From NCBI RefSeq assembly GCF_004114915.1, contig NZ_CP022219.1, positions 4,618,501 to 4,682,500 on the forward strand: 64,000 nt of DNA. Direction: 5' to 3'. Made by a program: the position numbers and the translations under genes. The stretch's first letter is position 1. Each line of letters opens with the position of its first letter. Shown here one piece after another: positions 15,898 to 30,552 of the stretch. The notes under the pieces were generated by a model. The model did not search any database. It was given only the letters and a program-made list of their open reading frames with translations, and was not told the origin of the DNA. Source of the DNA: Bradyrhizobium guangxiense (GTDB lineage Bacteria > Pseudomonadota > Alphaproteobacteria > Rhizobiales > Xanthobacteraceae).

Positions 15898-15949
15898 CAT
15901 GCTCCTCCCAATAGTTCGTGGCATTATTTGCTGCAGCCGGACGGCGTCA

Positions 15950-15963
15950 TTGATCGAGATCAA
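15950..15963 (-). promoter_or_regulatory. FNR/FixK box (TTGATCGAGATCAA)
   Basis: An exact anaerobox palindrome, TTGAT-N4-ATCAA. Its centre is 59.5 bp before the ATG of the 41-residue membrane protein. An FNR-class activator centred 41.5 bp from the transcript start would place that start near 15915. Confidence 0.8.
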
Positions 15964-15990
15964 AAACGGCAAGGCACTGCGGACGGAAGC

Positions 15991-16704
15991 TCAGGCTGCG
16001 GCCAACGCCTCGGCGCGGGCAGGATCGAGCAGGCTGATGCCGCCATGAATGATCTCGATCACGCCGTGACGCTCCAGTTTGGTGAAGGTGCGGCTGACGG
16101 TTTCGATGGTCAGACCGAGATAGTCAGCGATGTCCTGACGGCTCATCGGAAGCGGGACCGTGTCGGACAACCCCTTGAGCGCGACCAGCCGTTCACGCCA
16201 GCCGAGCAAGAAGGTCGCGACTTTCTCGTCAGCCGAGCGGCGGCCGAGCAGGACCATATGGTCCCGTGCCTGGCCCAACTCGCGAATGGCCAGCTCGTTG
16301 ATCCGCTTGAGCAGCTGCGGCCGGTCTTCGATGAAACGGCCGAAGGGCGCCTTGGCGAACTGGCACACGATCACCACGCCGATTGCATCGGCCGAAAAAT
16401 TGTGCCGGCCGGAAAGGTTCATCCCCAGGAAATCGCCGGGCAAGGCAAAGCCGACGATCTGCCGCCGGCCGTCGGGCAGCAGCTTGTACAGCCGCATGAC
16501 GCCTTCGAGGACGTTGTAGAAGGAGGTCGTGATGTCCTCCTCTGAGAACACGGTCTCGCCAACGTCGAAACGAACGCGACGTCCGAGATGCTCGAACTCT
16601 CTGAGCTCGGCTGCATCCAGCGACGAGCAAACCGCCGCTCCGCGTACGGCGCAATCGTTGCAGAAGTGCCCGTTCGGCTCGATCGTGACCACGGAAGGCT
16701 TCAT
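15991..16704 (-). CDS. FnrN/FixK1-type oxygen-responsive Crp/Fnr regulator
   Basis: A 237-residue regulator. The N-terminus has C15-x2-C18-x7-C26, and an internal C114 lies in VIVCQFAKAPF, the set expected for an oxygen-labile [4Fe-4S] cluster of the FnrN/FixK1 class. The recognition helix TIETVSRTF carries E201, S204 and R205, matching the E-x-x-S-R of FNR that reads TTGAT/TTGAC half sites. AGGAG precedes the start. An FNR-type box in the divergent gap (16789-16802) may serve both this gene and cytochrome c, so autoregulation is possible. It is the obvious candidate to act on the boxes scattered from 15.9 to 30.6 kb. Confidence 0.9.
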   Translation of the reverse strand: MKPSVVTIEPNGHFCNDCAVRGAAVCSSLDAAELREFEHLGRRVRFDVGETVFSEEDITTSFYNVLEGVMRLYKLLPDGRRQIVGFALPGDFLGMNLSGRHNFSADAIGVVIVCQFAKAPFGRFIEDRPQLLKRINELAIRELGQARDHMVLLGRRSADEKVATFLLGWRERLVALKGLSDTVPLPMSRQDIADYLGLTIETVSRTFTKLERHGVIEIIHGGISLLDPARAEALAAA

Positions 16705-16788
16705 CCACCGCTCCTAGCGTCGGTCCAGCTCCGCCCCCCGGCCGAGTCCGCCACGCGGCTGCATTTTACTGCACCGCGCCAAAGCCAA

Positions 16789-16802
16789 TTGACTCAGATC
16801 AA
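16789..16802. promoter_or_regulatory. FNR/FixK box (TTGACTCAGATCAA)
   Basis: TTGAC-N4-ATCAA in the gap between the divergent FnrN-like and cytochrome c genes. The centre is 63.5 bp before the cytochrome c ATG and 91.5 bp before the regulator ATG, so activation of cytochrome c and autocontrol of the regulator are both possible. Confidence 0.78.
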
Positions 16803-16858
16803 ATTTGAGTGGCATCCCCATCATATTCTGCCTCCGGACTTCGACGGGATCACTTTCC

Positions 16859-17176
16859 ATGCTGCAAGGCGCCCTGCGTCACGGCCTGATTGGGCTGCTT
16901 CTGATTACGCCCGCACTGGCGGCCCCCAGCGCCGAACAACGCGGCAAGGCCTTTGCTCGGGCCAATTGCGCACGCTGTCACGCGATCGACCGGGCCTCCC
17001 GCAGCTCGCTGGAGGGCGCTCCCCCGCTCCGCACTCTGCATCTGCGTTATCCGATCGAGACCCTTGGTGAAGCGCTGGCCGAAGGGATCTACACTGGTCA
17101 CGCCGACATGCCGGCCTTCGAGCTCAGTCCGGACCAGATCCACGACCTGCTGTCCTACCTGAAGACGCTGGAATAG
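16859..17176 (+). CDS. Small exported cytochrome c
   Basis: A 105-residue monoheme cytochrome. A signal peptide (hydrophobic HGLIGLLLITPALAA, residues 8-22) precedes the mature domain. Heme attachment is C37-A-R-C40-H41, and the likely axial methionine is M84 in HADMPAFEL. The length after processing (about 83 residues) fits a minimal class I cytochrome c of the periplasm. ATG 16859 was chosen because a longer TTG-started frame would lack a proper signal sequence. The upstream FNR-type box predicts induction at low oxygen, consistent with electron delivery to a high-affinity oxidase or reductase encoded elsewhere. Confidence 0.85.
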   Translation: MLQGALRHGLIGLLLITPALAAPSAEQRGKAFARANCARCHAIDRASRSSLEGAPPLRTLHLRYPIETLGEALAEGIYTGHADMPAFELSPDQIHDLLSYLKTLE

Positions 17177-17182
17177 ACGGCG

Positions 17183-18286
17183 TCATACCGCCTGCACGGT
17201 CCACCCGATCAGCTCCTTGACGATGCGCGCGAAAGCCGCGTCGAAGGCCGCGACCGAAGCGGCTGGTTCGACCTTGTCGAGCTTTTCGCTGGTCTCGACC
17301 AGGCGCGAGGCCACCACCTTGCCGGCCTTGTCGACGATCCGGGCCGACAGTCCGATCTCGACCTTTGCTTCCCCCTCCGTCGCGATCCGAAAGCGCCTGA
17401 TGTCGATCAGGAGCTGGTAATCCGCTTGACCGAGATCGCTCGTGCGCAGCGGGGCGTGAGCGATGTCGTAATTCTCGAAACTGTCGATCAAGCGCGCCTG
17501 CATCAGTTTCGGAATGCTATCGGCCCAGAGGAAGTCGGCAAAGCCCGGCCTGTCCCCGACGGGCGCGAACAGCATGCGCTGGGTCTGCAGCATTGCAACC
17601 GCGCTCGGCTCGGGAATGGCCAGTGACGTGGAGAGCGTCTTGCCGGCGGGGCCGAGATTTTGCGGCGCGTGCAGGTCGTAGGTGACCTTTTGCGCAGGAG
17701 CGCCGCCGCCGGTCATCTTCTCCAGACCGGCCAGAATGCCATCGATCTTGCCGGTGTTGCGCGCGAGCCCGTCGGAGAAGGTCTTGAAGTTCGCGATGGT
17801 GTCCTTGAGCGGGCCGGAATTGTCCTGCAGCACCGTATCGCCCCGCCGCAGCGCATCGCGCGCCGCCTGCGTCATGCTCTGACCGGCGCCGGCCTCAGCG
17901 ATCAAGGTCAGCGGCTCGCCGGATTTGGCGACGACCATACCGCCCTCGAGCGTCACCACCGGCACGCCGGTCAGGCCCTGGAATTCGAGACCGACCTTGG
18001 TATCGGAACGGACCGGCGTGGCCGTCGCAACGGAAATCGTCGCATTAACGAAGCGCGGGTTGTCCGGCGCGAGCCCGAGCTGGGTTACCTCACCGACACG
18101 AATGCCATTGAACAGCACGCCGGCGCCGACCAGCAAGCCCGGCACCGGGCCCTGGAATTGCACGTGGTAGTTCGTGCGCGGCCCGATCCCGCCGGTGTTG
18201 TTCAGCCAATAGACGAAGCCGAACACCGCAAGGATCGCGGCCAGCACGAAACTGCCGATCAGCACGTAGGGAGCGCGGGTTTCCAT
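17183..18286 (-). CDS. MlaD-like MCE protein fused to an ABC-auxiliary lipoprotein-like domain
   Basis: A 367-residue envelope protein. One N-terminal membrane helix (about residues 8-29, VLIGSFVLAAILAVFGFVYW) is followed by an MCE domain (about 38-115, with GLLVGAGVLFNGIRVGEV). A linker region and then a C-terminal domain (about 205-360) resemble the PqiC/ABC-type transport auxiliary family (FLWADSIPKLMQARLIDSFEN). It would carry lipid between inner and outer membrane together with the ATPase and permease encoded just upstream (3-bp gap). The fusion replaces what is often a separate auxiliary lipoprotein. It is the last gene of the three-gene Mla-like operon. Confidence 0.87.
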   Translation of the reverse strand: METRAPYVLIGSFVLAAILAVFGFVYWLNNTGGIGPRTNYHVQFQGPVPGLLVGAGVLFNGIRVGEVTQLGLAPDNPRFVNATISVATATPVRSDTKVGLEFQGLTGVPVVTLEGGMVVAKSGEPLTLIAEAGAGQSMTQAARDALRRGDTVLQDNSGPLKDTIANFKTFSDGLARNTGKIDGILAGLEKMTGGGAPAQKVTYDLHAPQNLGPAGKTLSTSLAIPEPSAVAMLQTQRMLFAPVGDRPGFADFLWADSIPKLMQARLIDSFENYDIAHAPLRTSDLGQADYQLLIDIRRFRIATEGEAKVEIGLSARIVDKAGKVVASRLVETSEKLDKVEPAASVAAFDAAFARIVKELIGWTVQAV

Positions 18287-18289
18287 GTC

Positions 18290-19063
18290 TCATCTCATCT
18301 CGTGTTGCAGCATCTGCGAGCGCTTGCCGTGGAAATAGGCGCGCACCCAGGGATGTTCGGATTGCAGCAATTCGCGCATCGGGCCGATCGCCACGATCTG
18401 GCCGTCGGCGAGCGCGGCGACGCGGTCGCAGACCGTGGTCAGGCTCGCAAGATCGTGGGTCACCATGAACACGGTCAGCCCCAGCGTCTTTTGCAGCGTC
18501 TTGATCAGCACATCGAAATCGCCGGCGGCAATCGGATCGAGGCCCGAGGTCGGCTCGTCCAGGAACAAGATCGGCGGATCAAGTGCGAGCGCGCGCGCCA
18601 GCGCCACGCGCTTGGTCATGCCGCCGGACAGCTCCGCTGGATATTTGTCGGCGTCCTCGGCACGCAAGCCCACCATTTCGAGTTTGGCGATCGCGATCTC
18701 GTCCATCAGCTCCTGCGACAGGACCAGATTTTCGCGCAAGGGAAACTGCACGTTCTGGCGGACCGTCAGCGAGGAGAACAATGCGCCCTGCTGGAACAGG
18801 ATGCCCCACGTCGTGGCCGCGCCTCGACCGTGACCGCCGGTCGGTTGCCCCATGACCTCGATGGTCCCGCTCCGACGCGGGATGAGGCCGATGATGGTCC
18901 GCATCAGCACCGACTTGCCGCCGCCGGACGCCCCCACCAGCCCGAGGATCTCGCCTCGGCGGACGTCGAGCGACAGATGGTCGAGCACGGTCTGGCGACC
19001 GAAGCCGACCACGAGGTTGCGGACGCGAATCGCGAACTGGTCCTGCGATACGTCCATCGTCAC
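18290..19063 (-). CDS. MlaF-like ABC transporter ATP-binding protein
   Basis: A 257-residue ATPase with Walker A GASGGGKS (about residues 40-47), signature LSGGMTKR, Walker B ILFLDEPTSG and the switch histidine in VMVTHD. The MTKR form of the signature is typical of Mla/Ttg2A-type lipid-transport ATPases. It overlaps the upstream permease gene by 4 bases and lies 3 bp before the MCE gene, so the three are co-expressed. It drives phospholipid movement across the envelope in the family's known systems. Confidence 0.92.
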   Translation of the reverse strand: MTMDVSQDQFAIRVRNLVVGFGRQTVLDHLSLDVRRGEILGLVGASGGGKSVLMRTIIGLIPRRSGTIEVMGQPTGGHGRGAATTWGILFQQGALFSSLTVRQNVQFPLRENLVLSQELMDEIAIAKLEMVGLRAEDADKYPAELSGGMTKRVALARALALDPPILFLDEPTSGLDPIAAGDFDVLIKTLQKTLGLTVFMVTHDLASLTTVCDRVAALADGQIVAIGPMRELLQSEHPWVRAYFHGKRSQMLQHEMR

Positions 19064-20196
19064 ATTCCGATCGAGGCAAAGAAGACCGCGAACAGGCCGT
19101 CAAGCACGATCACCAGGAATATCGACTTCACCACCGACGTCGTGGTCTGCCGCCCGAGCGACTCCGCGCTGCCCTTGACGCGCAGTCCCTCGCTGCAGGC
19201 CACGATCCCGATCACCAGCGCCATGAACGGCGCCTTCAGGATGCCCACCTCGAAATGCGTGACGGAGATTGCCTCGTGCAGCCGCGCGATGTAGATCGCC
19301 GGCCCCATGTCGCCATAGAACTGCGCGACGAGCCCGCCGCCATAGAGCGCGGCAATCGAGCCGATGAAGGTGAGGATCGGCAGCGCAATGACCAGGGCCG
19401 CGACGCGCGGCAGGATCAAGACGTCGACGGGATCGAGCCCCATGGTCGAGAGCGCATCGATCTCCTCGCGCATCTTCATCGAGCCGAGCTCGGCCGTGTA
19501 GGCGCTTCCCGACCGACCGGCGACCATGATGGCGACGATCAGCACGCCGAGTTCACGCAGCACCAGGATGCCGACCATGTCGACAGTGTAGGACTCCGCG
19601 CCGAATCTGCGGAAATGGAAGAAGCCCTGCTGCGCGATGATGGCGCCGATCAGGAAGGTGATCAGCGCGACGATGGGGATCGCCTGCCATCCGATGCGGT
19701 AGAGCTGATACACCAGCGAGGTCAGCCGCAGCGAAGCTGGCCGGCGCAGCACGCCGACTATGGCCATGAACAATGCGCCGAGCATCTGGAGGAAGATCGT
19801 GATGTCCTCCCGCGCACCGAGCGTGGACTTGCCGAGATCGCCGAGCCTTGCCAGAATCGGATTGGGCGCAACCGTCGGCGCGTGTGTGTGGCGGTTGACC
19901 TGGCGCACCTCATCCATCAGCCCGCTGAAGTGATCGGCGACGCCGACGAATTCAGCCGATCTGCCCGACGACGCGGCCCTGCGCGACAGTTTCTCCAGCA
20001 CCCAGGCGCCGAGCGTGTCGAGCGCACTGACGCCCGACATGTCCAGCGTGACGACACGCGACCGATCGACGTCGGCTCCGACCGACCGGGACAAGTTTTC
20101 CAACGTTACCACATTCGCGGCGGTCCAGGGCCCTTCGGGGCGCAAGTTCAGCACGTCGCCGGACGGCGTCGCGAGCAACAGCGGTTCGTGGTTCAC
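19060..20196 (-). CDS. MlaE-like permease with N-terminal STAS domain
   Basis: A 378-residue protein combining an N-terminal STAS domain (about residues 10-110, with LDMSGVSALDTLGAWVLEKL, equivalent to separate MlaB) and a MlaE permease domain (about 130-378). Family motifs are LITFLIGAIIAQQG, VLRELGVLIVAIMVAGRSGSAYTAELGSMKM and EEIDALSTMGLDPVDVLILPR. The start is a GTG preceded by GAGGTGG. It heads the permease-ATPase-MCE operon. An imperfect FNR-type box lies 76.5 bp upstream, hinting at oxygen control. Confidence 0.92.
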   Translation of the reverse strand: MNHEPLLLATPSGDVLNLRPEGPWTAANVVTLENLSRSVGADVDRSRVVTLDMSGVSALDTLGAWVLEKLSRRAASSGRSAEFVGVADHFSGLMDEVRQVNRHTHAPTVAPNPILARLGDLGKSTLGAREDITIFLQMLGALFMAIVGVLRRPASLRLTSLVYQLYRIGWQAIPIVALITFLIGAIIAQQGFFHFRRFGAESYTVDMVGILVLRELGVLIVAIMVAGRSGSAYTAELGSMKMREEIDALSTMGLDPVDVLILPRVAALVIALPILTFIGSIAALYGGGLVAQFYGDMGPAIYIARLHEAISVTHFEVGILKAPFMALVIGIVACSEGLRVKGSAESLGRQTTTSVVKSIFLVIVLDGLFAVFFASIGM

Positions 20197-20265
20197 GCTT
20201 CCACCTCATCGGGGCAATTGGCCCCCATTCATTCGGTATTTCTAGGCCGGCATATGGCGGCCGGC

Positions 20266-20279
20266 TTGACCTGTCTCAA
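20266..20279 (-). promoter_or_regulatory. Imperfect FNR/FixK-like box before the Mla-type operon
   Basis: TTGAC-CTGT-CTCAA differs from the palindrome at one outer base of the second half. The centre is 76.5 bp before the GTG start of the permease gene. The position fits its neighbours, but the mismatch makes it tentative. Confidence 0.4.
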
Positions 20280-20300
20280 AACCCTGGACCATGCCGCGGA

Positions 20301-20314
20301 TTGACGCAAATCAA
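20301..20314 (+). promoter_or_regulatory. FNR/FixK box (TTGACGCAAATCAA)
   Basis: TTGAC-N4-ATCAA centred 61.5 bp before the ATG of the DUF883-like gene. The predicted transcript start near 20349 leaves a short leader containing the GGGGA ribosome site. Confidence 0.75.
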
Positions 20315-20368
20315 GCGCGATCGCGCGCGCGGGTCCTAGGCTTGTTTTTGTTCAATGGGGATATATCC

Positions 20369-20644
20369 ATGTTCGACAGTGACAGCATGAGCGAAGAACT
20401 GCACGCACTGAAGGTCGACGTCACGCGCTTGCTGAGCACCGCCGGCGAGGAGGCGTTCGAGAGCTCGAAAGACCGCGCCGAGGCGCTCGCTGGTCAGATT
20501 CGGGCCGCGCTGACCGAGCTCGGCGAGACTGTCGAGGAAGAGCAGGAGCAGCTTCAGGGGCTCATTGCGGACCGTCCGATCACATCACTCGCCTCCGCCT
20601 TCGCGCTCGGCGTGGTCGTCGGCTTCATGCTGAGGAGACACTAG
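20369..20644 (+). CDS. DUF883 (ElaB/YqjD-like) membrane-anchored protein
   Basis: A 91-residue protein with a long amphipathic helical region (about residues 8-65, rich in Glu, Lys and Ala) and a C-terminal hydrophobic anchor ending in basic residues (ASAFALGVVVGFMLRRH). This is the layout of ElaB/YqjD family proteins, which in E. coli are stationary-phase membrane proteins that bind ribosomes. GGGGA precedes the ATG. The next gene begins immediately after its stop codon, and an FNR-type box lies upstream, so it is likely made at low oxygen. The family call rests on architecture. Confidence 0.75.
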   Translation: MFDSDSMSEELHALKVDVTRLLSTAGEEAFESSKDRAEALAGQIRAALTELGETVEEEQEQLQGLIADRPITSLASAFALGVVVGFMLRRH

Positions 20645-21145
20645 GTGAATACCGAGAACATCGTCAAACACCTGCGCGTGCTGTGGCGCACCGACAGAAT
20701 CATCGCGGACATCAGGCTGCGCCATCTGCTGGTCGGCCTCGGCTTGCGCGCCTTTGCGGCCCTGATCGCAGCGTTCGGGCTTCTGATGCTGGAACTATCG
20801 GCCTATTTCGCGCTGGTGCAGATCTGGAGTGCAATCGCCGCGGCGGCCATTCTCGGCGCCGTCAATTTTGCCATCGCGGCCACTCTCTTTCTGATTGCCG
20901 GCCGCGCTCCGTCAGGCCGTGACATCGAGCTCGCCAACGAAATTCACGATTCCTCCATCGAAGCACTTCAGCTCGAGGCACGCGCGCTCCAGGCCGAGGT
21001 GTCGGGCGCGGTGCATCATCCGCTCAGTACGATCGTGCCGGTGCTGGTGCCGTTGATCGCGATCATCGTCAAGAATTTGCGGACGGCGGCCAAGACATCC
21101 GCCAAGACATCCGCCGCGGCAAGCTCGGCCGAAGCGCGCCCCTAA
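20645..21145 (+). CDS. Putative phage-holin-family / YqjE-like membrane protein
   Basis: A 166-residue protein with two central hydrophobic helices (about residues 28-55 and 60-86) and a third hydrophobic stretch near 125-142, ending in an alanine/lysine-rich tail with a repeated TSAKTSA. The GTG start directly follows the stop of the DUF883-like gene, mirroring the yqjD-yqjE arrangement of enterobacteria. It is therefore probably a DUF1469/YqjE-like partner rather than a true phage holin. The function is unknown. Confidence 0.7.
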   Translation: MNTENIVKHLRVLWRTDRIIADIRLRHLLVGLGLRAFAALIAAFGLLMLELSAYFALVQIWSAIAAAAILGAVNFAIAATLFLIAGRAPSGRDIELANEIHDSSIEALQLEARALQAEVSGAVHHPLSTIVPVLVPLIAIIVKNLRTAAKTSAKTSAAASSAEARP

Positions 21146-21252
21146 AGCCCGATGAGACTGGGTGAATCGTCATCGCGCTTTAGGTCGTTGTTTGCGCATG
21201 ATCTCTATCTTTGCGGAAAACCGCTTCGCACTTTTCCGGATCATGCTCTAGC
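21144..21252. repeat. Interspersed repeat, copy A (GCATGATC-containing family)
   Basis: About 109 bp running TAAAGCCCGATGAG, then TCATCGCGCTTTAGG, TGCGCATGATC, GGAAAACCGCTTCGCACTTTTCCGGATCATGC. It fills the gap between the holin-like gene and the Pat-like gene. The same units occur reversed at 60995-61115 and as a fragment at 36114-36142. Confidence 0.75.
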
Positions 21253-21260
21253 GGACGCGC

Positions 21261-23954
21261 TCAGAGCTTCAACCTGACATCGCAGATATCAGGCTCGGTC
21301 GAATCCGGCTTGACCTCGAAGCCGAGGTGCCGGCACAGTTCGAGCATCACCGTATTCTCCTTCAGAACGTCGCCCGATATGACTTTCAGCCCTTCCGACT
21401 TGGCGTAGTTGATGATGAGCTGCATGAGGGCCAAGCCGAGCCCCCTGCCCTTGAGATCGGACCGCAGCAGGATGGCGTATTCGCCGCGCTCATAGACCGA
21501 ATCCGAATGCAGCCGGACCACGCCAACCATTTCGCCGGAGGCCTCGTCGAACGCGATGAAGGCCATCGCCCGCGCATAGTCGAGCTGGGTCAGGCGCGCG
21601 ATGAACTCGTGGGTAAACTCCTTCATCGGCGCGAAGAAGCGCAGGCGAAGATCGTGCGGGGTGACATGACGCAGGAATTCGTGGATGGTCGGCTCGTCCT
21701 CGGGGCGCATGGGCCGCACGAAGATACGCCAGTCATCCTTGATCTTGAGGCGGCGCTCCCATTGCGATGGATAGGCGCGAACCGCGAAATTGGCCGGGCC
21801 GGAGCCGACAAACTTCCGTTGCGGCGGCCCGACCGCAACGCGGGCGTCGACCGCGGTCACGCCGGTTTCGTCCGCCAGCAGCGGATTGATGTCGAATTCG
21901 TGGATTTCCGGAATATCGGCGGCCATCTGCGCCAGCTTGACCAGCACCATGGCCACCGCGTCTTGCTTGACCGCGGGCACATCCCGATAGGCCTTCAGCA
22001 GCCGCGATACACGCGTGCGGTCGATCAAATCGCGGGCGAGCTGCAAATCCAGCGGCGGCAGCGCAAGCGCTTTGTCGTTGATGATCTCCACCGCCGTGCC
22101 GCCACGGCCGAACACCACGACGGTGCCGAAAGTGGGATCGTCGGCGAGGCCCAGGATCAGCTCGCGCGCTTTCGCCTTGACCACCATGGCCTGGACGATG
22201 ACACCGCCGATGCGAGCCTCGGGCCGCAGCTTTCTTGCCCGCGCGAGAATGTCGGAAGCCGCCGCCCGCACGGCCTCCGGCGTCGTCAGATTGAGCATAA
22301 CGCCGCCGACATCGGATTTGTGGATGATATCCCGCGACAGGATCTTCAGCACGACGGTGCCGCCCTGTGCGAAAATGTCCTTCGCATAGGTCACCGCCTG
22401 CTCGACGTCGGTTGCCGCATAGGTCGGCACCATCGCGATGTCGTAGGCTTCGAGCAGATGCTTGATCTCGACCGGCTCGAGCCATTGGCGGCCATCCGCG
22501 ATCGCGGCGGGAACGATCTCCCTTGCCCCCTGGGCGTCCGGAACGAAAGTATCGGGCATCGCGGGGGGAACCTGGCTCAGCTCCTCCACCACTTCGCGGT
22601 GCCGGACCAGATGCATGAAGCCGCGCACCGCATCATCCTCAGTCGGATAGTTCGGCATGCCGGCACCGGAAAGTGCCTGAATGATGGGCTGATCGGCCCC
22701 GACCCAAGCCGCCAGCACCGGCTTGGCCCATCGGTGGTGCTGCTCGCGATATTTGCCGACAAGCTCCGTCACGGTGGTGGCGATATCGGCCGCAGAGGCA
22801 ATGGCTGTCTGCACGTTGAGGACCAGGACCGCGTCGTTGTCGCGATCGGCGAGCAGTTCCTGCAGCGCCGCCGCGTAGCGCGGGGCGTCGGCGTCGCCCA
22901 CGATGTCGACGGGATTTGCACCGGACCAGGTCGGCGGCAGTGCGGCATCGAGCTTCTTGCGCACTTCGGCCGAGATGGTTGCCGGAATTCCGCCGAGTTC
23001 GACCAATCGATCGACTGCGAGGACTCCGATGCCGCCACCGTTGGTCAGGATGGCGAGACGCTTTCCGGCCGGGGATTCAACGCGCCCAAGCGTCTCGGCA
23101 CAATCGAACAGCTCGCGCAGATCTGACACCCGCAGCACACCCGCCCGGCGGAATGCGGCGTCGTAGACGGCGTCGGCACCAGCGAGCGCGCCGGTATGGG
23201 TGGCCGCTGCCTTCGCGCCCTGCGCCATGCGGCCGGACTTCACCACGACGACAGGCTTCACGCGCGCGGCGGCACGCGCTGCCGACATGAACTTGCGCGC
23301 GTCCTTGATGGACTCGATATAGAGCAGGATCGCCCGCGTTTTGTGATCCATGGCGAAATGGTCAAGTAAATCGGCAATATCGACGTCGATCTGATCGCCG
23401 ATCGAGACGATGCCGGAGAAGCCGACGCCACGCTGCGCAGCCCAGTCGACCATGCCGGCCGCGATCGCACCCGATTGCGAGATCAGTGCGAGGTTGCCCG
23501 CCCCCGGCATATGCGCGGCGAAGCTGGCATTGAGGCTCACGCCGGGTATCATGATCCCGAGGCAGTTCGGTCCGATCAGCCGCATGCCGTATTTGCGGGC
23601 AGCCGTGCTCGCGGCCTCGTGCAGAGATCCCGGCCCCTGGCCGAGCCCGGCCGACACTATCAGGGCGCCCGCGGAGCCGCGACGGCCGGCCTGGTCGATA
23701 ATTCCTGGAATCTCGCCTGCCGGAGCAGTGATGACGACGAGCTCGGGCACGAAGTCCAGCCTGTCCAGGTGCTTCACCGCTGCGAAGCCACCAATCTCGG
23801 CATGCCGCGGGTTGACCAGGCCGAACTGCCCCTTGAATTCGGCCTTACGAATGTTGTCCAGGACGGCGCGCCCCACGGAGGCCGGACGGGCGCTCGCCCC
23901 AACGAGCGCGACCGAACGCGGAGACAGCAGGTTGTTCAGACGATAGGTGGACAT
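21261..23954 (-). CDS. Pat-like bifunctional NDP-forming acyl-CoA synthetase / GNAT acetyltransferase
   Basis: An 897-residue protein. Residues 1 to about 700 form the CoA-binding, ligase and ATP-grasp domains of NDP-forming acyl-CoA synthetases (SVALVGASARPASVGRA near 15, IGPNCLGIMIPG near 127, ATP-grasp ILSRDIIHKSDVGGV near 570). The last 150 residues are a GNAT domain (DLKGRGLGLALMQ). This is the layout of Pat protein lysine acetyltransferases. Unlike the inactive synthetase domain I recall for enterobacterial Pat, H253 in ATHTGALAG matches the phosphohistidine position. ATG 23954 was preferred over an upstream start that overlaps the stress-protein gene. It follows that gene by 65 bp on the same strand. 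Confidence 0.85.
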   Translation of the reverse strand: MSTYRLNNLLSPRSVALVGASARPASVGRAVLDNIRKAEFKGQFGLVNPRHAEIGGFAAVKHLDRLDFVPELVVITAPAGEIPGIIDQAGRRGSAGALIVSAGLGQGPGSLHEAASTAARKYGMRLIGPNCLGIMIPGVSLNASFAAHMPGAGNLALISQSGAIAAGMVDWAAQRGVGFSGIVSIGDQIDVDIADLLDHFAMDHKTRAILLYIESIKDARKFMSAARAAARVKPVVVVKSGRMAQGAKAAATHTGALAGADAVYDAAFRRAGVLRVSDLRELFDCAETLGRVESPAGKRLAILTNGGGIGVLAVDRLVELGGIPATISAEVRKKLDAALPPTWSGANPVDIVGDADAPRYAAALQELLADRDNDAVLVLNVQTAIASAADIATTVTELVGKYREQHHRWAKPVLAAWVGADQPIIQALSGAGMPNYPTEDDAVRGFMHLVRHREVVEELSQVPPAMPDTFVPDAQGAREIVPAAIADGRQWLEPVEIKHLLEAYDIAMVPTYAATDVEQAVTYAKDIFAQGGTVVLKILSRDIIHKSDVGGVMLNLTTPEAVRAAASDILARARKLRPEARIGGVIVQAMVVKAKARELILGLADDPTFGTVVVFGRGGTAVEIINDKALALPPLDLQLARDLIDRTRVSRLLKAYRDVPAVKQDAVAMVLVKLAQMAADIPEIHEFDINPLLADETGVTAVDARVAVGPPQRKFVGSGPANFAVRAYPSQWERRLKIKDDWRIFVRPMRPEDEPTIHEFLRHVTPHDLRLRFFAPMKEFTHEFIARLTQLDYARAMAFIAFDEASGEMVGVVRLHSDSVYERGEYAILLRSDLKGRGLGLALMQLIINYAKSEGLKVISGDVLKENTVMLELCRHLGFEVKPDSTEPDICDVRLKL

Positions 23955-24019
23955 GAAAGCAAATGCGCCGGGTCCGTGGCGGTTCCGATGGTTGACGATC
24001 AGGCCTGAAAGTAGAGAGC

Positions 24020-24859
24020 CTAGTGTGAGATCATAACCCAGCACGGTGGCTGGCCAATGACGGTCTTTGTCACACCGCCCCAGACGATCTCGTTCAGGCG
24101 CGAATGATGGTAGGCCCCCATCACGATGGCATCAATGCCATGGGATTTCGCCCAGCTTGCCAAGATCTTGCCGACCGAGCTGCCGCGGCTTTCGGTGGTT
24201 TCGAACGCGGCATAGACCCCGTGTTCCCGCAGGTGGTCGACGAGAGCCGTTCCGGATTGTACGACCGCATCCGTCTTGTCCTCCGCCACGGTCAACACTC
24301 GGACCGAGCTGGCAGCCTGAAGAAACGGCAACGCATCGCCCACCGCTCGCGCCGCACGCGCGGAGTGATCCCAGGCGATCATGACGTTCTCGAATTCGGG
24401 CAGAAGCTCGTCCGCAAGATGTTCCGGACAGAGCAGCAGCGGCCGGCCGGATCCGAACAGGAAGGCTTCGACAATGCGCTCCGTTCGGCTGTCGTGCGGC
24501 TTCACGGGAAGCAGCGTGAGATCGCTGAAACGGGCGTGCTCGGCCAGAATCGCTGCGATCTGGTCTGCCGGCACCTTGCCCGTTCGGCTCTGGGCGCGAA
24601 TGTTGGCGCGGGACGCCGCATTGGTGAATGCGTTCAGGAGCTGCTGCAGATCGTTCGTCTCACGCGACCTGCCGACATCAGCCGAATCGCGATCGTCGAG
24701 CAGCATCACTTTCGGTCGCTCGAAAACCTCCTCCTCGAGCGCGAGCGCCGTGATCCTGGCGCCGAGGTCGGCGGCGACGCTCACACATTTTTCGATCGCA
24801 ACCAAGGCCGGCCCATGCGGCTGGCCGACAAGCGGCAGAAAGACATCCTTGATGGGCAT
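24020..24859 (-). CDS. Universal stress protein
   Basis: A 279-residue protein with an N-terminal UspA-type domain opening IKDVFLPLVG and a second one from about residue 150 (FENVMIAWDHSARAARAVGDALPFL ... GIDAIVMGAYHHSRLNEIVWGGVTKTVI). The usual G-x2-G-x9-G ATP loop is degenerate in the second domain. AGGAG precedes ATG 24859. The FNR-type box at 24907-24920 is centred 54.5 bp upstream, so low-oxygen induction is likely. It is followed by the Pat-like gene, probably in one transcript. Confidence 0.88.
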   Translation of the reverse strand: MPIKDVFLPLVGQPHGPALVAIEKCVSVAADLGARITALALEEEVFERPKVMLLDDRDSADVGRSRETNDLQQLLNAFTNAASRANIRAQSRTGKVPADQIAAILAEHARFSDLTLLPVKPHDSRTERIVEAFLFGSGRPLLLCPEHLADELLPEFENVMIAWDHSARAARAVGDALPFLQAASSVRVLTVAEDKTDAVVQSGTALVDHLREHGVYAAFETTESRGSSVGKILASWAKSHGIDAIVMGAYHHSRLNEIVWGGVTKTVIGQPPCWVMISH

Positions 24860-24906
24860 CGGGATTCTCCTTGGCCGCCACAATAGGCTGGCTTTCATCG
24901 AGACAG

Positions 24907-24920
24907 TTGATCCTCGTCAA
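24907..24920 (-). promoter_or_regulatory. FNR/FixK box (TTGATCCTCGTCAA) facing the stress-protein gene
   Basis: TTGAT-N4-GTCAA centred 54.5 bp before the universal stress protein ATG. The predicted transcript start is near 24872, immediately before its ribosome site. Confidence 0.75.
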
Positions 24921-24957
24921 GCCAAGGGAACCCGGTCCGCTCGACCGGGAACTCGCG

Positions 24958-24971
24958 TTGACCGACGTCAA
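24958..24971 (+). promoter_or_regulatory. FNR/FixK box (TTGACCGACGTCAA) facing the alcohol dehydrogenase gene
   Basis: An exact TTGAC-N4-GTCAA palindrome centred 70.5 bp before the alcohol dehydrogenase ATG and 51 bp from the other box of the same divergent gap, so each direction has its own site. Confidence 0.8.
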
Positions 24972-25034
24972 GGACTGGTCGCTCTGCTACTCTATGAATA
25001 ACTTCAGTCGGAGCGGTTCGCCCCGGAGAGACTC

Positions 25035-26018
25035 ATGCGTGCGATGGTGTTGCCGGCCCCGCGAACGCGGCTCCAGATGGAGGAGCGGCCTGACCCGATA
25101 CCCGGCGCGGGTCAGCTGCGGGTGAAAATCGGCGCCTGCGGCGTATGCCGGACCGATCTTCACCTCGTCGATGCCGAACTGCCCGATATCCGTTATCCGA
25201 TCGTGCCTGGCCACGAGATCGTCGGCCGGGTCGATCTCGTGGGCCCGAATGTGGCAACGCATGCGCCCGGTGATCGCGTCGGTATTCCCTGGCTCGGCTT
25301 CACCTGCGGACATTGTCGCTTCTGCCGGGAGGGCATGGAGAACCTGTGTGACGCACCGCTGTTCACCGGCTACACGCGCGACGGCGGCTACGCGACCCAC
25401 ACCATCGCTGACGCACGCTACGCTTTTCCCCTCGGGGAGGCCGGCAACGACGTGGAGATTGCTCCTCTGCTATGCGCGGGACTGATTGGCTGGCGCTCGC
25501 TGGTGCTAGCCGGCCCGGCCGACCGGCTCCGCCTCTATGGTTTCGGCGCGGCCGGCCACATCATTGCGCAAGTCGCGGTCTGGCAGGGACGATCCGTCTA
25601 CGCATTCACGCGGCGTGGCGACGCCGCAGCGCAGGATCTTGCACGTCGCCTCGGCGCCGTGTGGGCGGGGGCATCGGACGAGGAGCCTGACGAGCCGCTC
25701 GATGCCGCCATCATCTACGCGCCGGCCGGCCAGCTTGTCCCGGCCGCGCTGCGCGCCGTACGCAAAGGCGGTCGCGTCGTATGCGCCGGGATCCACATGA
25801 CCGACATTCCAAGCTTTCCGTATGATCTGCTCTGGCAGGAACGCCAGCTTATCTCGGTGGCCAATCTGACCCGGCAGGATGGCCTCGATTTTCTCAAGAT
25901 CGCTCCACAAGCCGGCGTGCGCGCCGAAACGACCGCATTTCCCCTCGAGCAGGCCAATGAAGTTCTGACCATGCTGCGGGCGGGTCAGATTCTCGGCACG
26001 GCCGTGCTGACGCCCTGA
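25035..26018 (+). CDS. Zinc-dependent alcohol dehydrogenase family protein
   Basis: A 327-residue medium-chain dehydrogenase. Catalytic zinc ligands are C38 (GVCRTD) and H60-E61 (PGHE). The structural-zinc set is C91, C94, C97 and C105 (CGHCRFCREGMENLC). The nucleotide-binding region GFGAAGHIIAQVA lies near 170-182. It interconverts alcohols and aldehydes or ketones with NAD(P)H; AdhA-type members serve fermentative redox balance. GGAGAG precedes ATG 25035. Its own FNR-type box predicts induction at low oxygen. It is the first gene of an operon with the APH-AAA kinase gene 12 bp downstream. Confidence 0.9.
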   Translation: MRAMVLPAPRTRLQMEERPDPIPGAGQLRVKIGACGVCRTDLHLVDAELPDIRYPIVPGHEIVGRVDLVGPNVATHAPGDRVGIPWLGFTCGHCRFCREGMENLCDAPLFTGYTRDGGYATHTIADARYAFPLGEAGNDVEIAPLLCAGLIGWRSLVLAGPADRLRLYGFGAAGHIIAQVAVWQGRSVYAFTRRGDAAAQDLARRLGAVWAGASDEEPDEPLDAAIIYAPAGQLVPAALRAVRKGGRVVCAGIHMTDIPSFPYDLLWQERQLISVANLTRQDGLDFLKIAPQAGVRAETTAFPLEQANEVLTMLRAGQILGTAVLTP

Positions 26019-26030
26019 TGGTGCTTTCGG

Positions 26031-27605
26031 ATGCCCGTTTCCATGAAAGATGAAATGGCGGCCCAGGAGCGGATCTTCCGGACGCTGACCAGCCATTCCG
26101 GGGTGACGCGGATCGACACGCATGGAGCGTCGGTGTTCCTCGACGGGAAGCGCGCGTTGAAGATCAAGCGCGCCGTGCGGTTTCCCTTCCTCGATTATTC
26201 GACGTTGGAAAAGCGCAAGCTGGCGTGCGAGGAGGAAATCAGGATCAACCGGCCGCTGGCGCCGCAGATCTATCATCGCGTCGTGGCGATCACGGAAGAG
26301 CCGGATGGATCCGTGCAAGTCGGCGGTCGGGGCCGGCCGATCGAGTATGCGGTGGACATGTCGCGCTTCGACGAAAGCAGAACACTGGATCATCTGGCCA
26401 AGGGCGGCCCGCTGGATGCGAAGCTCGCCTCGGCAGCCGCCGACGCGATCGTGGCTTCGCACGCGGCGGCGACTTGCGCCGACGGAACGGCATGGGTCTC
26501 ATCGATCCCGGCGCTGATTGAGGGCAACAGTGACGGACTGCGGGCTGGCGGGTATTTCAACGCTGACGACGTCGAAAAGCTAGGCAAGGCCTCGCAGGAG
26601 GCATTTCGACGTATTCGTCCCCTGCTCACGGAGCGCGGCCATCAGGGCTTCGTGCGCCGCTGCCACGGCGATTTACACCTTGCAAACATCGTTCTGATCG
26701 ACGACCGGCCCGTGCTGTTCGACGCCATCGAGTTCGATGCACAGATGGCAACCGTCGACGTACTCTACGATCTCGCCTTCACGCTGATGGACCTGTTGCA
26801 CCACGAACAGCCACGCGCGGCCAACATCGTCTTGAACCGCTATCTCGCCGCGACGCCGGCCGACAATCTCGACGCACTCTCGGCCCTGCCGCTGTTCATG
26901 TCCGTCCGGGCGGCGATCCGCGCCCAGGTGGCCCTGGCACGGATGAGGCCGCCGCACTCCGACGACCCCGGCATTCTCGGGCAGGCACAACGATATTTTG
27001 GCCTCGCCAGGACACTGATCCATCCGTCGGCCCCGCGCCTGATTGCCGTTGGTGGACTATCAGGCACCGGCAAAACGGTTCTGGCGCAAGCGCTGGCGCC
27101 CGGCATCGCGCCGCCGCCCGGGGCTGTCGTGCTGCGCAGCGATATCGTGCGCAAGCGGATGTTCGGGGTCGAGGATACGCAGCGCCTGCCGCCGTCCGCC
27201 TACACGCCGGAGCATGCGGCCCGCGTCTACGGCACGCTGGCCCAGCACGCCCGGCGGGTGCTGGCGCAAGGCCATTCGGCGATCATCGACGGCGTATTCG
27301 CCCGCGAGGACGAACGGAACGCGGTTTCCGCGCTGGCGCGCGAGTGCGGCGTGCCGCTGAACGGGCTGTTTCTGGTTGCGGACCTCGCGACCCGGCAGAG
27401 GCGGATCGGAAGCCGAGAGGGCGACGCATCGGACGCCACGCAAGAGGTTGCCGCGCTGCAAGAGCACTATAATATCGGCCGCATCGGTTGGGGGGCCATC
27501 GATGCATCCGGGTCACAAGAGCAGACGCTCCAGCACTGCTGGAATGCGATCGCTGAAGGCAAACAGGGCAATCTGATTGGCGCTGGCAAAGATGGCACGA
27601 CCTAG
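26031..27605 (+). CDS. APH-like kinase fused to AAA/P-loop ATPase domain
   Basis: A 524-residue two-domain protein. The N-terminal half has an aminoglycoside-phosphotransferase/choline-kinase-like fold with catalytic loop H212-GDLHLAN and metal-binding FDAIEFD at 230-236. The C-terminal half is a P-loop kinase-like domain with GGLSGTGKT at 341-349. The same two-domain layout occurs in mycobacterial Rv2004c, a gene of the hypoxia-induced dormancy regulon. ATG 26031 and ATG 26043 are both possible starts with weak ribosome sites. It lies between the alcohol dehydrogenase and CHAD genes. The substrate is unknown. Confidence 0.82.
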   Translation: MPVSMKDEMAAQERIFRTLTSHSGVTRIDTHGASVFLDGKRALKIKRAVRFPFLDYSTLEKRKLACEEEIRINRPLAPQIYHRVVAITEEPDGSVQVGGRGRPIEYAVDMSRFDESRTLDHLAKGGPLDAKLASAAADAIVASHAAATCADGTAWVSSIPALIEGNSDGLRAGGYFNADDVEKLGKASQEAFRRIRPLLTERGHQGFVRRCHGDLHLANIVLIDDRPVLFDAIEFDAQMATVDVLYDLAFTLMDLLHHEQPRAANIVLNRYLAATPADNLDALSALPLFMSVRAAIRAQVALARMRPPHSDDPGILGQAQRYFGLARTLIHPSAPRLIAVGGLSGTGKTVLAQALAPGIAPPPGAVVLRSDIVRKRMFGVEDTQRLPPSAYTPEHAARVYGTLAQHARRVLAQGHSAIIDGVFAREDERNAVSALARECGVPLNGLFLVADLATRQRRIGSREGDASDATQEVAALQEHYNIGRIGWGAIDASGSQEQTLQHCWNAIAEGKQGNLIGAGKDGTT

Positions 27606-28563
27606 CACAATCTCGACGGCCGCTCGCGCCACTCCGGCGGCGCGGCGCAATGCGCTGCCCGGCCGTCTCAGTCCCGGCATGGCCTGCGATACAGCGTTCC
27701 GGATCATCGCGCGCCGCCACCTCGATGCCGTCCTCGCCCAGCATGACGGTACCTGCCGCGGCGATCCCGACGCGCTGCACCAGATCCGCATCGCATTGAC
27801 GCATCTGCGGACGGCCATCCGCTTCTTCTCGCCGATGGTCGACGACGCTCTGCGGCCGAATGTCTGGGCCGAACTGAAATGGCTGAACAATCAGCTCGGC
27901 ATGGTGCGCGACCTCGACGTGGCGATCGAGCGGGTCGTCGCCGAGAGCGGCGACGAGCTCGCCGTGGTCGCCGAGCTTCAACACTGGGACGAAAAGCGCG
28001 CCGAGAGTCACCGCCAGCTGGCGCGCGCACTGCAATCGGCGCGGTATCGCCGCCTCGTGGAGCAGACCTCGAGCTGGATCGAGAGCGGTCCCTGGTCGAC
28101 CCGGCGCAGCAAGGAAGCCATCCGATTGCGCCGCTGCACGCTCGCTGACCACGCGACGGAACGGCTGACCGACTGGGAGACGACGCTGCTCAAGAAGGCG
28201 CGCAAGCTCCGCAAGCTCGACGTCGACAAGCGCCACAAGGTACGACTTCTCAACAAGCGGATGACTTATTCGGTCGAGTCGCTGCAGGACCTGTTCGCCG
28301 AGGAGTCATTGACGAAGCAGAAGTCCATCCTCAAGAAATTGCGCAAGGCGCAGCGGTCGCTCGGACAATTGAACGACGACGCACGAGGACAAGCATTGGC
28401 GGCGTCGTTGAACGGCGCCGGCCTCGAAGCCGGCAAACGCTTCCTCAATCGCAAGCGGGAGAAGAAGCTGTTGCGGAAGGCCTCGGCGGCCTACCGCAAA
28501 TTGGACAAGACCAAACCGTTCCGGTCCTCGGATCTCGCGCCGAGTTCGGAGCCGGAGGCTTAG
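27592..28563 (+). CDS. CHAD domain-containing protein
   Basis: A 323-residue all-helical protein rich in Arg and His, with the CHAD hallmark HQIRIALTHLRTAIRFF (about residues 64-80) and the later KRMTYSVESLQDLF. CHAD domains bind polyphosphate through conserved basic residues and can target proteins to polyphosphate granules. ATG 27592 overlaps the kinase gene by 14 bases, so it belongs to the alcohol dehydrogenase-kinase operon. Its 3' end overlaps that of the convergent PHA synthase gene by 4 bases. Confidence 0.85.
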   Translation: MARPSTISTAARATPAARRNALPGRLSPGMACDTAFRIIARRHLDAVLAQHDGTCRGDPDALHQIRIALTHLRTAIRFFSPMVDDALRPNVWAELKWLNNQLGMVRDLDVAIERVVAESGDELAVVAELQHWDEKRAESHRQLARALQSARYRRLVEQTSSWIESGPWSTRRSKEAIRLRRCTLADHATERLTDWETTLLKKARKLRKLDVDKRHKVRLLNKRMTYSVESLQDLFAEESLTKQKSILKKLRKAQRSLGQLNDDARGQALAASLNGAGLEAGKRFLNRKREKKLLRKASAAYRKLDKTKPFRSSDLAPSSEPEA

Positions 28564-30413
28564 GTGTGGACGTAGTCCCCCGGCGCATCGGGCAGACCTG
28601 GAGCGCCTCCAACCCCGATCTGCGGGGGATCACAGGGCGCGCCGGAGCGCGCCCCCAGCCAATTGGTCCATTCCGGCCACCACGAGCCTTCAACATGGGG
28701 AGCCAGCTTCAGCCACTCGTCTGCACCAACATAGGGCGCATCGGCAGCCTTGGTCAGCACCTGATAGAAGTGGCCCTCCTCCTGCGGAGGCGCGACGACG
28801 CCAGCGTTGTGACCGCCGCTGGTCAACAGGAACGTCACGTCGGCATCGACCTGGTAGTGGATCTTGTAGACGGATCGCCACGGCGCGACGTGATCGGCCA
28901 GCGTGCCGACCACGAACATCGGGGTGTGAATGTCGGATAGCGAGACACTCCTGCGTTCGACGCGATAGCGACCCTCCGCCAGATCGTTGTCCAGAAACAG
29001 CTTGCGCAGATACTCCGAGTGCATGCGATAGGGCAGCCGCGTGGCGTCGGCGTTCCAGGCCATGAGATCGCTCGGCGGCGCGCCCTCGCCCATCAGATAA
29101 TCGTGCGACAAACGCGACCAGATCAATTCGTTGGAGCGCAACAGCTGGAAAGCACCGGCCATCTGCGCCGTGTCGAGATAGCCTCGCTGCCACATCATGT
29201 CTTCGAGAAAGGCGACCTGGCTCTCGTTGATGAAAAGCGTCAGCTCTCCGGCCTCAGTAAAATCGGTCTGGGCCGCAAGAAGAGTGACGGTGCCGAGACG
29301 GTTGTCGCCGTCGCGTTCCATCGCCGCGGCGGCGATCGACAGCAACGTACCGCCGAGACAATAGCCGAGCGCATGAATCTTCCGCCCCGGCATAATCAGG
29401 CCGATCATGTCCAGCGCAGCCATGACGCCCAGCTTGCGGTAGTCGTCAAAGGCGATATCCCGATCCCGGGCATCCGGATTGCGCCAGGAGATCGCGAACA
29501 CGGTGAAACCTTGATTGGTCAGATAATTGACCAGCGAGTTCTGCGGCGAGAGATCGAGGATATAATACTTCATGATCCAGGCCGGCACGATCAGGATCGG
29601 CTCGGGGCGCACCTGCGCGGGGGTCGGATGGTACTGAATCAGTTCGATCAGGTCGTTGCGGTAGACGACCTTGCCGGCGGAAGCTGCCACCGTCTTGCCG
29701 ACCACGAACTGCCCGTCGTCCGTCAGCTTCGAGCTGGAGAGCAGGCGCATCAAGTCGCTGCACCAGTTCTGCCAGCCGAAGACGAAATTCTCCCCGCCGC
29801 TCTGGAACGCCTTCTCCAGGACCTTCGGATTGGTTGCCGCGAAATTCGACGGTGCCAGCATGTCGAGCATCTGGCGCATCGAGAACTCGACGATGGCTTC
29901 GTTTGCGTGCGAGACGCCGCGCACGCCCGTCGCGGCATCGCGCCACCAGCTCTCTGTGAGCAGAAATGCCTGCGCGAGTAGATTGAACGGCGGGGTCTCC
30001 CATTGTGGTCCACTGAAACGGCGATCCCGCCCCTGCGGTTGGATCACGGACCACGGCTTTTGCTGCGGCGACGCTGCATGCGCGGCGGCTTGCGCCAGCC
30101 GGCCGGTGTCGCGCAGGATGTTGCGGGAGATCTCCATCTGGCGCTGCGGCGCCGCAGCGAGATGCGAGCTCCAGTCGAGCCAGGCAAGCGACAAGGACAG
30201 AGGTGAAATTCCGCCCGTGAACCGTGCCAGTAGGGCGTGAAACGCGCGGTCGAAGGGATATGGCTCTGATACAGGCAAGAGATCGGCGGCAGCCGGCATC
30301 GGCACGGGCTTTTCAGCGCTCACCGTCCGGCCTTCGGGGCCAACGATGAGATTGACGGGAAGAGCCTGTACTGCCGGCTCCTCGGCCCGTGGAAGTATCC
30401 GCACGACGCTCAT
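28560..30413 (-). CDS. phaC: Poly(3-hydroxyalkanoate) synthase (PhaC-like)
   Basis: A 617-residue alpha/beta-hydrolase-fold polymerase. The catalytic triad is visible: C352 in the lipase-like box GYCLGG, D507 in GTLADHVAPW and H535 in SGGHNAG. The N-terminal region (about 50-260) matches the PhaC N domain, including NFVFGWQNWCSDLMRLL. It polymerises hydroxyacyl-CoA into storage polyester granules. The FNR-like box at 30473-30486, centred 66.5 bp before the start, suggests expression at low oxygen, where polymer synthesis can act as an electron sink. It is probably an additional rather than the housekeeping synthase, as no phaA or phaB adjoins it. Confidence 0.88.
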   Translation of the reverse strand: MSVVRILPRAEEPAVQALPVNLIVGPEGRTVSAEKPVPMPAAADLLPVSEPYPFDRAFHALLARFTGGISPLSLSLAWLDWSSHLAAAPQRQMEISRNILRDTGRLAQAAAHAASPQQKPWSVIQPQGRDRRFSGPQWETPPFNLLAQAFLLTESWWRDAATGVRGVSHANEAIVEFSMRQMLDMLAPSNFAATNPKVLEKAFQSGGENFVFGWQNWCSDLMRLLSSSKLTDDGQFVVGKTVAASAGKVVYRNDLIELIQYHPTPAQVRPEPILIVPAWIMKYYILDLSPQNSLVNYLTNQGFTVFAISWRNPDARDRDIAFDDYRKLGVMAALDMIGLIMPGRKIHALGYCLGGTLLSIAAAAMERDGDNRLGTVTLLAAQTDFTEAGELTLFINESQVAFLEDMMWQRGYLDTAQMAGAFQLLRSNELIWSRLSHDYLMGEGAPPSDLMAWNADATRLPYRMHSEYLRKLFLDNDLAEGRYRVERRSVSLSDIHTPMFVVGTLADHVAPWRSVYKIHYQVDADVTFLLTSGGHNAGVVAPPQEEGHFYQVLTKAADAPYVGADEWLKLAPHVEGSWWPEWTNWLGARSGAPCDPPQIGVGGAPGLPDAPGDYVHT

Positions 30414-30472
30414 GGCTCAATTTCCTGTCGGCTCTGTTCATTGACAGGATATGGCCAGCCTTCGCGTGCGGG

Positions 30473-30486
30473 TTGAGCTGCATCAA
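30473..30486 (-). promoter_or_regulatory. FNR/FixK-like box before the PHA synthase gene
   Basis: TTGAG-CTGC-ATCAA has one deviation from TTGAY in the outer half. It is centred 66.5 bp before the phaC-like start, within the spacing range of the other boxes. Confidence 0.6.
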
Positions 30487-30538
30487 ATCCGGGACGCAGA
30501 TCACGTCTGCTTAATCGGGATGAAAGGGCGTCGTCCGA

Positions 30539-30552
30539 TTGACCTGGGTCAA
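30539..30552 (+). promoter_or_regulatory. FNR/FixK box (TTGACCTGGGTCAA)
   Basis: An exact TTGAC-N4-GTCAA palindrome centred 71.5 bp before the CBS-BON gene ATG. Together with the site at 30473 it forms a divergent pair, as in the stress-protein/alcohol dehydrogenase gap. Confidence 0.78.

Follow-up and report, generated by a model that had tools for sequence, protein, structure and literature searches.

The 64,000-nucleotide stretch of the Bradyrhizobium guangxiense genome analyzed here (contig NZ_CP022219.1, positions 4,618,501 to 4,682,500; hereafter the window) contains, between 15.77 and 31.35 kb, a compact island of 15 genes. These appear to form nine units, each led by a box of the FixK/FNR type, with the operons among them taken from gene order (Table 1). 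The island is the version, in this Bradyrhizobium, of the known bll6061-blr6074 (fixK1-phaC2) low-oxygen region of Bradyrhizobium diazoefficiens, and is not new. We consider it very likely that the whole island, including a gene for a small membrane micropeptide, is driven by the regulator FixK2 through eight such boxes.

Table 1. Genes and boxes of the fixK1-phaC2 island, in window coordinates; distances run from the box centre (axis) to the start codon, and operon groupings are putative
Feature	Position	Strand	Remarks
FixK box of micropeptide gene	15950..15963	-	Axis 56-59 bp before ATG (start 15900 or 15897)
Micropeptide gene, 41 amino acids, one predicted membrane span	15772..15900	-	Likely start ATG 15897
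FixK1, FNR-type regulator with four conserved cysteines	15991..16704	-	Counterpart of bll6061 (fixK1)
Bidirectional FixK box, putatively common to fixK1 and cycS	16789..16802	.	63 bp to start 16859
Small c-type cytochrome, CycS counterpart	16859..17176	+	
mlaE-, mlaF- and mlaD-type genes of a lipid ABC (ATP-binding cassette) transporter, taken as one operon	17183..20196	-	mlaE-type 19060-20196, mlaF-type 18290-19063, mlaD-type 17183-18286
FixK box, tentatively assigned to the mla operon	20266..20279	-	76 bp ahead of the mlaE-type start (20196)
FixK box of the 20369-21145 operon	20301..20314	+	61 bp to start 20369
91-amino acid protein without Pfam match, and weakly holin-like membrane protein	20369..21145	+	bsr6066-blr6067 counterparts
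Overlapping usp and pat (universal stress protein; CoA-ligase/GNAT protein)	21261..24898	-	bll6069 and bll6068 counterparts; usp start most likely 24859
FixK box of usp-pat	24907..24920	-	54 bp to start 24859
FixK box of adh operon	24958..24971	+	70 bp to start 25035
Zinc alcohol dehydrogenase (adh), APH/AAA kinase and CHAD protein, taken as one operon	25035..28563	+	
Class I-type polyhydroxyalkanoate (PHA) synthase, PhaC2 (bll6073) counterpart	28560..30413	-	PHA synthase model score 537.6 bits, under the model cut-off of 622.65
FixK box of phaC2	30473..30486	-	66 bp to start 30413; identical sequence printed for bll6073
FixK box of CBS-BON gene (cbs)	30539..30552	+	71 bp to start 30617
CBS-BON protein	30617..31345	+	blr6074 counterpart

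A preliminary description of this DNA had reported seven FNR/FixK boxes around an FnrN-like gene, and had read the island as a single oxygen-controlled module. Its account of the boxes was accurate: the six sites given as strict TTGAY-N4-RTCAA matches (15950, 16789, 20301, 24907, 24958, and 30539) are exact, a pattern scan also found the one-mismatch sites at 20266 and 30473, and the spacing it gave of 54-72 bp between box centre and start codon agrees with the distances measured for the seven boxes. In print, the FixK2 box is given as TTG(A/C)-N6-(T/G)CAA (PMC9104804), and as both 20266 and 30473 fit this form with zero mismatches, the island holds eight boxes. All eight show this 14-bp palindrome, which is that of FixK2-type (class II CRP/FNR) promoters.

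Dinucleotide shuffles of the window gave a mean of 0.18 strict sites and never more than one, so that none of 100 shuffles reached the six that were observed. The looser published pattern occurs 10 times in the window against 2.98 expected, with two of these sites (27448 and 31892) in or near other genes. Across the whole genome (8.2 Mb), the strict pattern was found 75 times and a reversed control pattern once, and none of 2,000 random placements of 75 sites put 6 into any window of 14.6 kb. A chance origin of the boxes was rejected by these three controls. With 6 sites in 14.6 kb, the island is the second densest in the genome, after a stretch with 7 sites in 15 kb at 1.01 Mb.

The boxes are also conserved among relatives, for which the best 80 of 102 loci found by a scan with the CoA-ligase/GNAT protein were used (77 of them titled Bradyrhizobium). 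Counting loci as usable when both flanking genes were present at a plausible distance, a strict box was found between the micropeptide gene and fixK1 in 57 of 59, between fixK1 and cycS in 61 of 61, between mlaE and the 6066 gene in 55 of 59, between usp and adh in 35 of 35, and between phaC2 and cbs in 51 of 51. The strict pattern occurs 381 times in the 80 loci and its reversal once. In the aligned loci, the eight box cores are 0.95-1.00 identical to the window and their flanks 0.51-0.72; for the 15950 box, the values are 0.996 and 0.578. The cbs promoter carries two boxes in all 53 loci with an adjacent phaC2, while among the 10 loci without it, 8 have one box, 1 has none, and 1 has two, which agrees with box loss accompanying gene loss. 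Where adh does not stand beside usp, 27 of 31 loci still show two boxes ahead of usp, and a box precedes the kinase gene in 30 of 75 loci, those in which the kinase gene stands next. One of the loci (L055) comes from a record titled Frankia sp. RB7 and carries a Bradyrhizobium-type island with 86% identity, suggesting that this title is probably wrong.

The position of -10-like elements gives an indication of which gene each box serves. In the window, each box has such an element to one side, centred some 31 bp from its axis, and the box at 16789 has one to either side; at the 15950 box the element reads AATAAT at offset 31. Among the 80 loci, 453 of 518 promoters read in the assigned direction had TA at offset 30-32, compared to 4 of 299 read the other way. 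For the box at 16789, 67 of 68 promoters on the fixK1 side have TA at 30, and 59 of 61 on the cycS side have it at 31. The box at 20266 shows TA at 31 towards mlaE in 62 of 63 and none at 29-33 towards the 6066 gene in 51. At offsets 31-32, the remaining counts are 59/59 for 20301, 65/65 for 24907, 33/40 for 24958 (with 8 at offset 33), 44/44 for 30473, and 61/61 for 30539. Genome-wide, TA is found at offset 31 in 25 of 150 directions, and in 0 to 8 at every other offset.

From this geometry, the box at 20266 would serve the mla operon, 20301 the 6066-6067 genes, 30473 phaC2, and 30539 the CBS gene; the assignment of 20266 to mla in particular is an inference. Divergent promoters would thus have one box per direction, with 16789 as the only bidirectional box. 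The simpler arrangement, in which one box serves both genes at every divergent promoter, was rejected, as only 16789 has two-sided -10 elements. Mesa and colleagues reportedly described in 2008 a single FixK2 box that serves fixK1 and cycS in both directions, and the apparent two-sided use of 16789 is the same arrangement. The nosR promoter, which is FixK2-dependent, has one transcript start mapped 40.5 bp from the box axis (PMC5582078). The common -10 spacing would put transcript starts about 40.5 bp from the box axis here as well, and with the -10 elements as a proxy, the geometry fits activation at about -40.5. The sequence of the 20266 box has been printed under bsr6066, and that of the 30473 box under both bll6073 and blr6074 (PMC9104804); the geometry suggests that these two printed boxes be reassigned.

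The preliminary description had implied that the regulator encoded at 15991-16704 is the hub of the island. The features on which it relied are present: the protein has an N-terminal CxxCx7C and a fourth cysteine, with Cys 15, 18, 26, and 114 kept in 67 of 68 aligned rows (one is gapped), and the E-x-x-S-R helix reads TIETVSRTFT in 63 of 68 rows, the other 5 falling outside the search pattern. The gene that was called FnrN-like is fixK1, being the counterpart of bll6061, which carries that name (PMC4070659). NCBIfam models for FnrL and FixK gave 172.6 and 147.6 bits, both under their cut-offs of 300. The hub role was not supported, as fixK1 is itself a FixK2 target in B. diazoefficiens (PMC9104804, PMC5582078), and FixK2 is encoded elsewhere. 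The fixK2 gene lies 3 Mb from the island on the contig that carries it (C1:1632880-1633587), and its product contains PMCRRDIGDYLGLT, with a sole cysteine at 186. Its neighbours were read from their translations as fixJ, fixL, usp, and fixN, and ccoO was found by model at 1639674; fixK2 thus stands with fixLJ in this genome.

Under low oxygen, FixLJ would switch on fixK2, and FixK2 dimers would bind the eight boxes, their axes some 40.5 bp ahead of the transcript starts. RNA polymerase would then be recruited at nine -10 elements. FixK1, with its FNR-type cysteines, would be a FixK2 target and probably co-regulates a subset such as cycS.

Published data on the counterparts support this in part. 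An increase under microoxic conditions has been tabulated for bll6060, bll6063, bll6064, bll6065, bll6068, bll6069, bll6073, and blr6074, of which bll6069, bll6073, and blr6074 only are given as direct FixK2 targets (PMC6515984); fixK1, cycS, bsr6066, blr6067, and blr6070 do not appear in that table. Deletion of fixK2 lowers expression of bsr6066 93-fold, blr6067 21-fold, bll6073 28-fold, and blr6074 91-fold (PMC9104804), and blr6070, blr6071, and blr6074 were reported to be FixK2-dependent (PMC2908626). For phbC, control by FnrN/FixK has been predicted (PMC4999443). The oxygen-controlled module of the preliminary description is therefore upheld by microoxic or FixK2-dependent counterparts, but only a part of it has been published as a direct FixK2 target. 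By analogy, the island in this strain would behave like its counterparts in B. diazoefficiens.

The presence of the regulators in related genomes bears on the same question. FixK proteins were searched in the genomes of seven loci that are without fixK1, cycS, and the mla genes, and in two genomes with the full island. In G005 (locus L067) and G001 (locus L017), fixK1 stands off the island on another contig, 2.3 and 4.1 kb from fixK2, respectively, so that it appears to have moved between two oxygen-control loci. G004, G006, and G007 have FixK2 without a full-length match to FixK1, G006 retaining a short FixK1 remnant. The G006 locus (L092) has kept both usp/adh boxes with their -10 elements, which indicates that those boxes need no FixK1.

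Several points count against a FixK2-driven island. The identity of the counterparts in B. diazoefficiens USDA110 was drawn from gene order and printed product names. Furthermore, bll6060, bll6063, bll6064, bll6065, and bll6068 are marked as not being direct FixK2 targets (PMC6515984), and the marks for bll6063-bll6065 and bll6068 argue against the assignment of 20266 to mla and against co-transcription of usp and pat. The promoter directions behind the TA counts were set from the window, and the counts were made in its close relatives; these samples are not independent. The micropeptide promoter is an outlier, with TA at 30-32 in 1 of 57 promoters and at 33 in 33 of 57, and TA at 30-32 flanks 34 of the 75 strict sites of the genome on one or both sides and is missing from both sides of the other 41. 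Two genomes in which neither FixK1 nor FixK2 was found (G002, locus L033, and G003, locus L041; best matches 28-30% identity) keep their usp boxes with -10 elements. Strict-box counts were 29 in G001, which has both regulators, 54 in G006, which has FixK2 only, and 16 and 18 in the two genomes with neither. The idea that the number of strict boxes reports on FixK content was rejected, since the two did not correspond cleanly across the nine genomes compared.

Two other regulators were weighed as alternatives to FixK2. It appears unlikely that FixK1, sensing oxygen via an iron-sulphur cluster, is the main activator of the island. Its four cysteines are nearly invariant, its E-TVSR helix should read the same sequence, and fixK1 and the shared box are conserved within the island. 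Against this, FixK2 is required for bsr6066, blr6067, bll6073, and blr6074 (21- to 93-fold drops), fixK1 is itself a FixK2 target, and the L092 locus retains its usp/adh boxes and -10 elements with no more than a remnant of FixK1. The FixK1 regulon in the 2008 work of Mesa and colleagues was also reportedly far smaller than that of FixK2. We give slightly less credence to the idea that the main reader is another CRP/FNR paralogue, with FixK2 in a secondary role. Candidates are an NnrR-like protein and two further FixK-like proteins of this genome (C1:1892810 and C1:5631244), which are without the N-terminal CxxCx7C. The boxes that persist in the two genomes with neither FixK1 nor FixK2 speak for this idea. 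However, the FixK2 dependence of the counterparts is published, and FixK2 in this genome has the expected place and cysteine. FixK2 therefore remains our preferred activator of the island.

Leftward of the 15950 box lies a frame of 41-42 codons, whose second ATG (15897) is the likely start, because the first (15900) is often replaced. In the 55 of 64 sequences with a comparable core, the ratio of nonsynonymous to synonymous substitution rates (dN/dS) was 0.145, third positions were the most variable, and the other two sense frames contained stops in 52 and 46 of the 55. The box was present in 57 of the 61 Bradyrhizobium loci having 250 bp upstream; L021 and L092 have an intact-looking frame start with no box within 160 bp, and the frame of L054 is broken. 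The 15950 box would drive this gene, whose product, a membrane micropeptide of 41 amino acids, may assist a membrane complex that works at low oxygen. The micropeptide was not found in the literature, which is weak evidence of absence, as text cannot be searched by sequence and supplements were outside the search; the same holds for the available literature on the fixK1-phaC2 region of B. diazoefficiens.

A protein search returned 78 relatives besides the query, and every organism named among them was a Bradyrhizobium. A family profile was built from these relatives and five divergent loci, before boxes were searched for outside Bradyrhizobium. Within the taxonomic family, 73 of 149 genomes, from 23 of 47 genera, contained a match to it. 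Among the 69 of 80 profile matches that were examined (nine of the eleven left out were weak), a TTGA-N6-TCAA box was found 20-160 bp before the start in 56, and at 50-70 bp in 50. By genus, the box was present in 19 of 23. Control windows of equal size at the same loci (60 members) had a box in 18 of 1,950 cases. The 13 members without the box include 7 with a looser TTG-N8-CAA at 55-66 bp and 6 with none. All of the 60 peptides inspected contain a strongly hydrophobic stretch of 19 residues. The family consensus is roughly MPxDxxxVxxxVVxxFVxFAxxLAWADRQT, its members are mostly 33-47 amino acids long, and the box usually stands 55-69 bp before the start. The genomic context varies: among 30 neighbours scanned in 17 of 20 large loci were genes for a transglutaminase, glutamine synthetase, transglycosylase, FlgH, carbonic anhydrase, and Usp, and, in some loci, a FixK1-like protein.

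The least probable of the alternatives is that the small frame is no gene and that the box at 15950 belongs to fixK1 as a spare or downstream site. No proteomic or transcript evidence for the frame was found, its source label is hypothetical protein, its first ATG is not conserved, and L092 and L021 have its start without a box within 160 bp. Against this alternative speak the coding constraint and the occurrence of relatives across many genera, frequently at a distance from fixK1 and mostly with the box.

As to the role of the micropeptide, ccoO was present in 58 of 73 genomes carrying it and in 40 of 76 others, leaving 15 and 36 without, among which four genomes with ccoO matches below the cut-off were counted. 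The association has a Fisher p of 0.0009, or 0.0046 with stronger micropeptide hits only, both uncorrected for kinship. The two genes lie at most 15 kb apart in five genomes (G013, G087, G089, G114, and G147). A role dedicated to the cbb3 oxidase is weakened by the 15 of 73 carriers without ccoO over the cut-off. Pfam and NCBIfam matches of 32 members were weak and scattered, with none convincing and no TorE/NapE family among them, and no PDB chain was matched at E 10. The NCBIfam model of CcoM matched 1 of the 32 at E 0.0059; with 32 queries this is unremarkable, and it was not taken as a CcoM match. A known name for the micropeptide was likewise not supported, as labels such as PilV, MnhC, and nitrogen fixation-related look like noise among the best 120 of 531 matches. 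We tentatively propose, at somewhat less than even chances, that this unrecognized single-span family, mostly with its own FixK/FNR boxes, belongs to a membrane complex that works at low oxygen, as a conserved component under oxygen control; it might be a CcoM-like helper of cbb3 or something more general. A more general helper is conceivable because some carriers are without cbb3.

Several other features were noted in and around the island. The mla-type transporter contains fused proteins: the MlaE permease is preceded by a STAS domain, and MlaD is followed by an ABC auxiliary lipoprotein domain. At 26031-28563, one protein joins APH-like and AAA/zeta-toxin-like kinase domains, and the next frame, that of the CHAD-domain protein, overlaps it by 29 bases. 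A second CRP/FNR-type gene (14766-15494), the bll6060 counterpart, adjoins the island; no box was found within 250 bp upstream of it in 72 of 72 loci, though bll6060 is mildly induced by microoxia. Scans of the window for Rfam families (at the gathering threshold) and tRNAs found nothing.

Elsewhere in the genome, the densest stretch of strict boxes (C1:1009546-1030159) has nine in 20.6 kb, among genes for two CBS-BON proteins, a phosphoenolpyruvate synthase, a 1-phosphofructokinase-type hexose kinase, and a GH1 enzyme; one of the boxes is closely followed by an ATPase inhibitor zeta-subunit gene. Another nine lie in 32 kb (C1:5603560-5636042) around the FixK-like protein at C1:5631244, with genes for a decarboxylase, a molybdopterin oxidoreductase, and DUF3141 and DUF3300 proteins.

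Taken together, the original observation of a box-rich island was correct, while its regulon is known from a model relative and its proposed hub was wrong. Gene order by product names is the same as in bll6061-blr6074 of B. diazoefficiens, a region placed in the FixLJ-FixK2-FixK1 cascade, where bll6062/blr6062 is named CycS or cytochrome c6 in the available literature, and two box sequences are identical to those printed for bsr6066 and bll6073. As this module has already been described, there is no new regulon, and the original claim adds another species to a known FixK2 target region, not a new system. The island differs from the printed version in the proposed assignment of 20266 (to mla, not bsr6066) and 30473. 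What is new is the map of one box per direction with a single bidirectional box, which yields exact predictions of transcript starts.

A further addition would be the small family of conserved genes, most of which carry an oxygen-control box. With the micropeptide, the low-oxygen response would gain a testable new member in a bacterial family to which legume symbionts belong. Respiratory complexes can contain tiny membrane proteins that are easily overlooked, and a conserved oxygen box offers a clean route to them. The FnrN/FixK regulons compared across alphaproteobacteria (PMC2908626, PMC4999443) share the motif type and include blr6070, blr6071, blr6074, and phbC as predicted or demonstrated targets, while no small membrane protein of this kind is named in their available text. 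Among known small proteins with which the micropeptide can be compared, two kinds stand out. CcoM has a single span. As a 36-amino acid cbb3 subunit of Pseudomonas stutzeri, it is similar in size and also linked to low oxygen (PMC10433244), but shows no significant sequence match, and the micropeptide occurs in 15 of 73 genomes without ccoO over the cut-off. TorE and NapE are likewise small membrane proteins that support respiratory complexes; they are described with their cognate respiratory systems (PMC6134056), whereas the micropeptide family is found in varied neighbourhoods.

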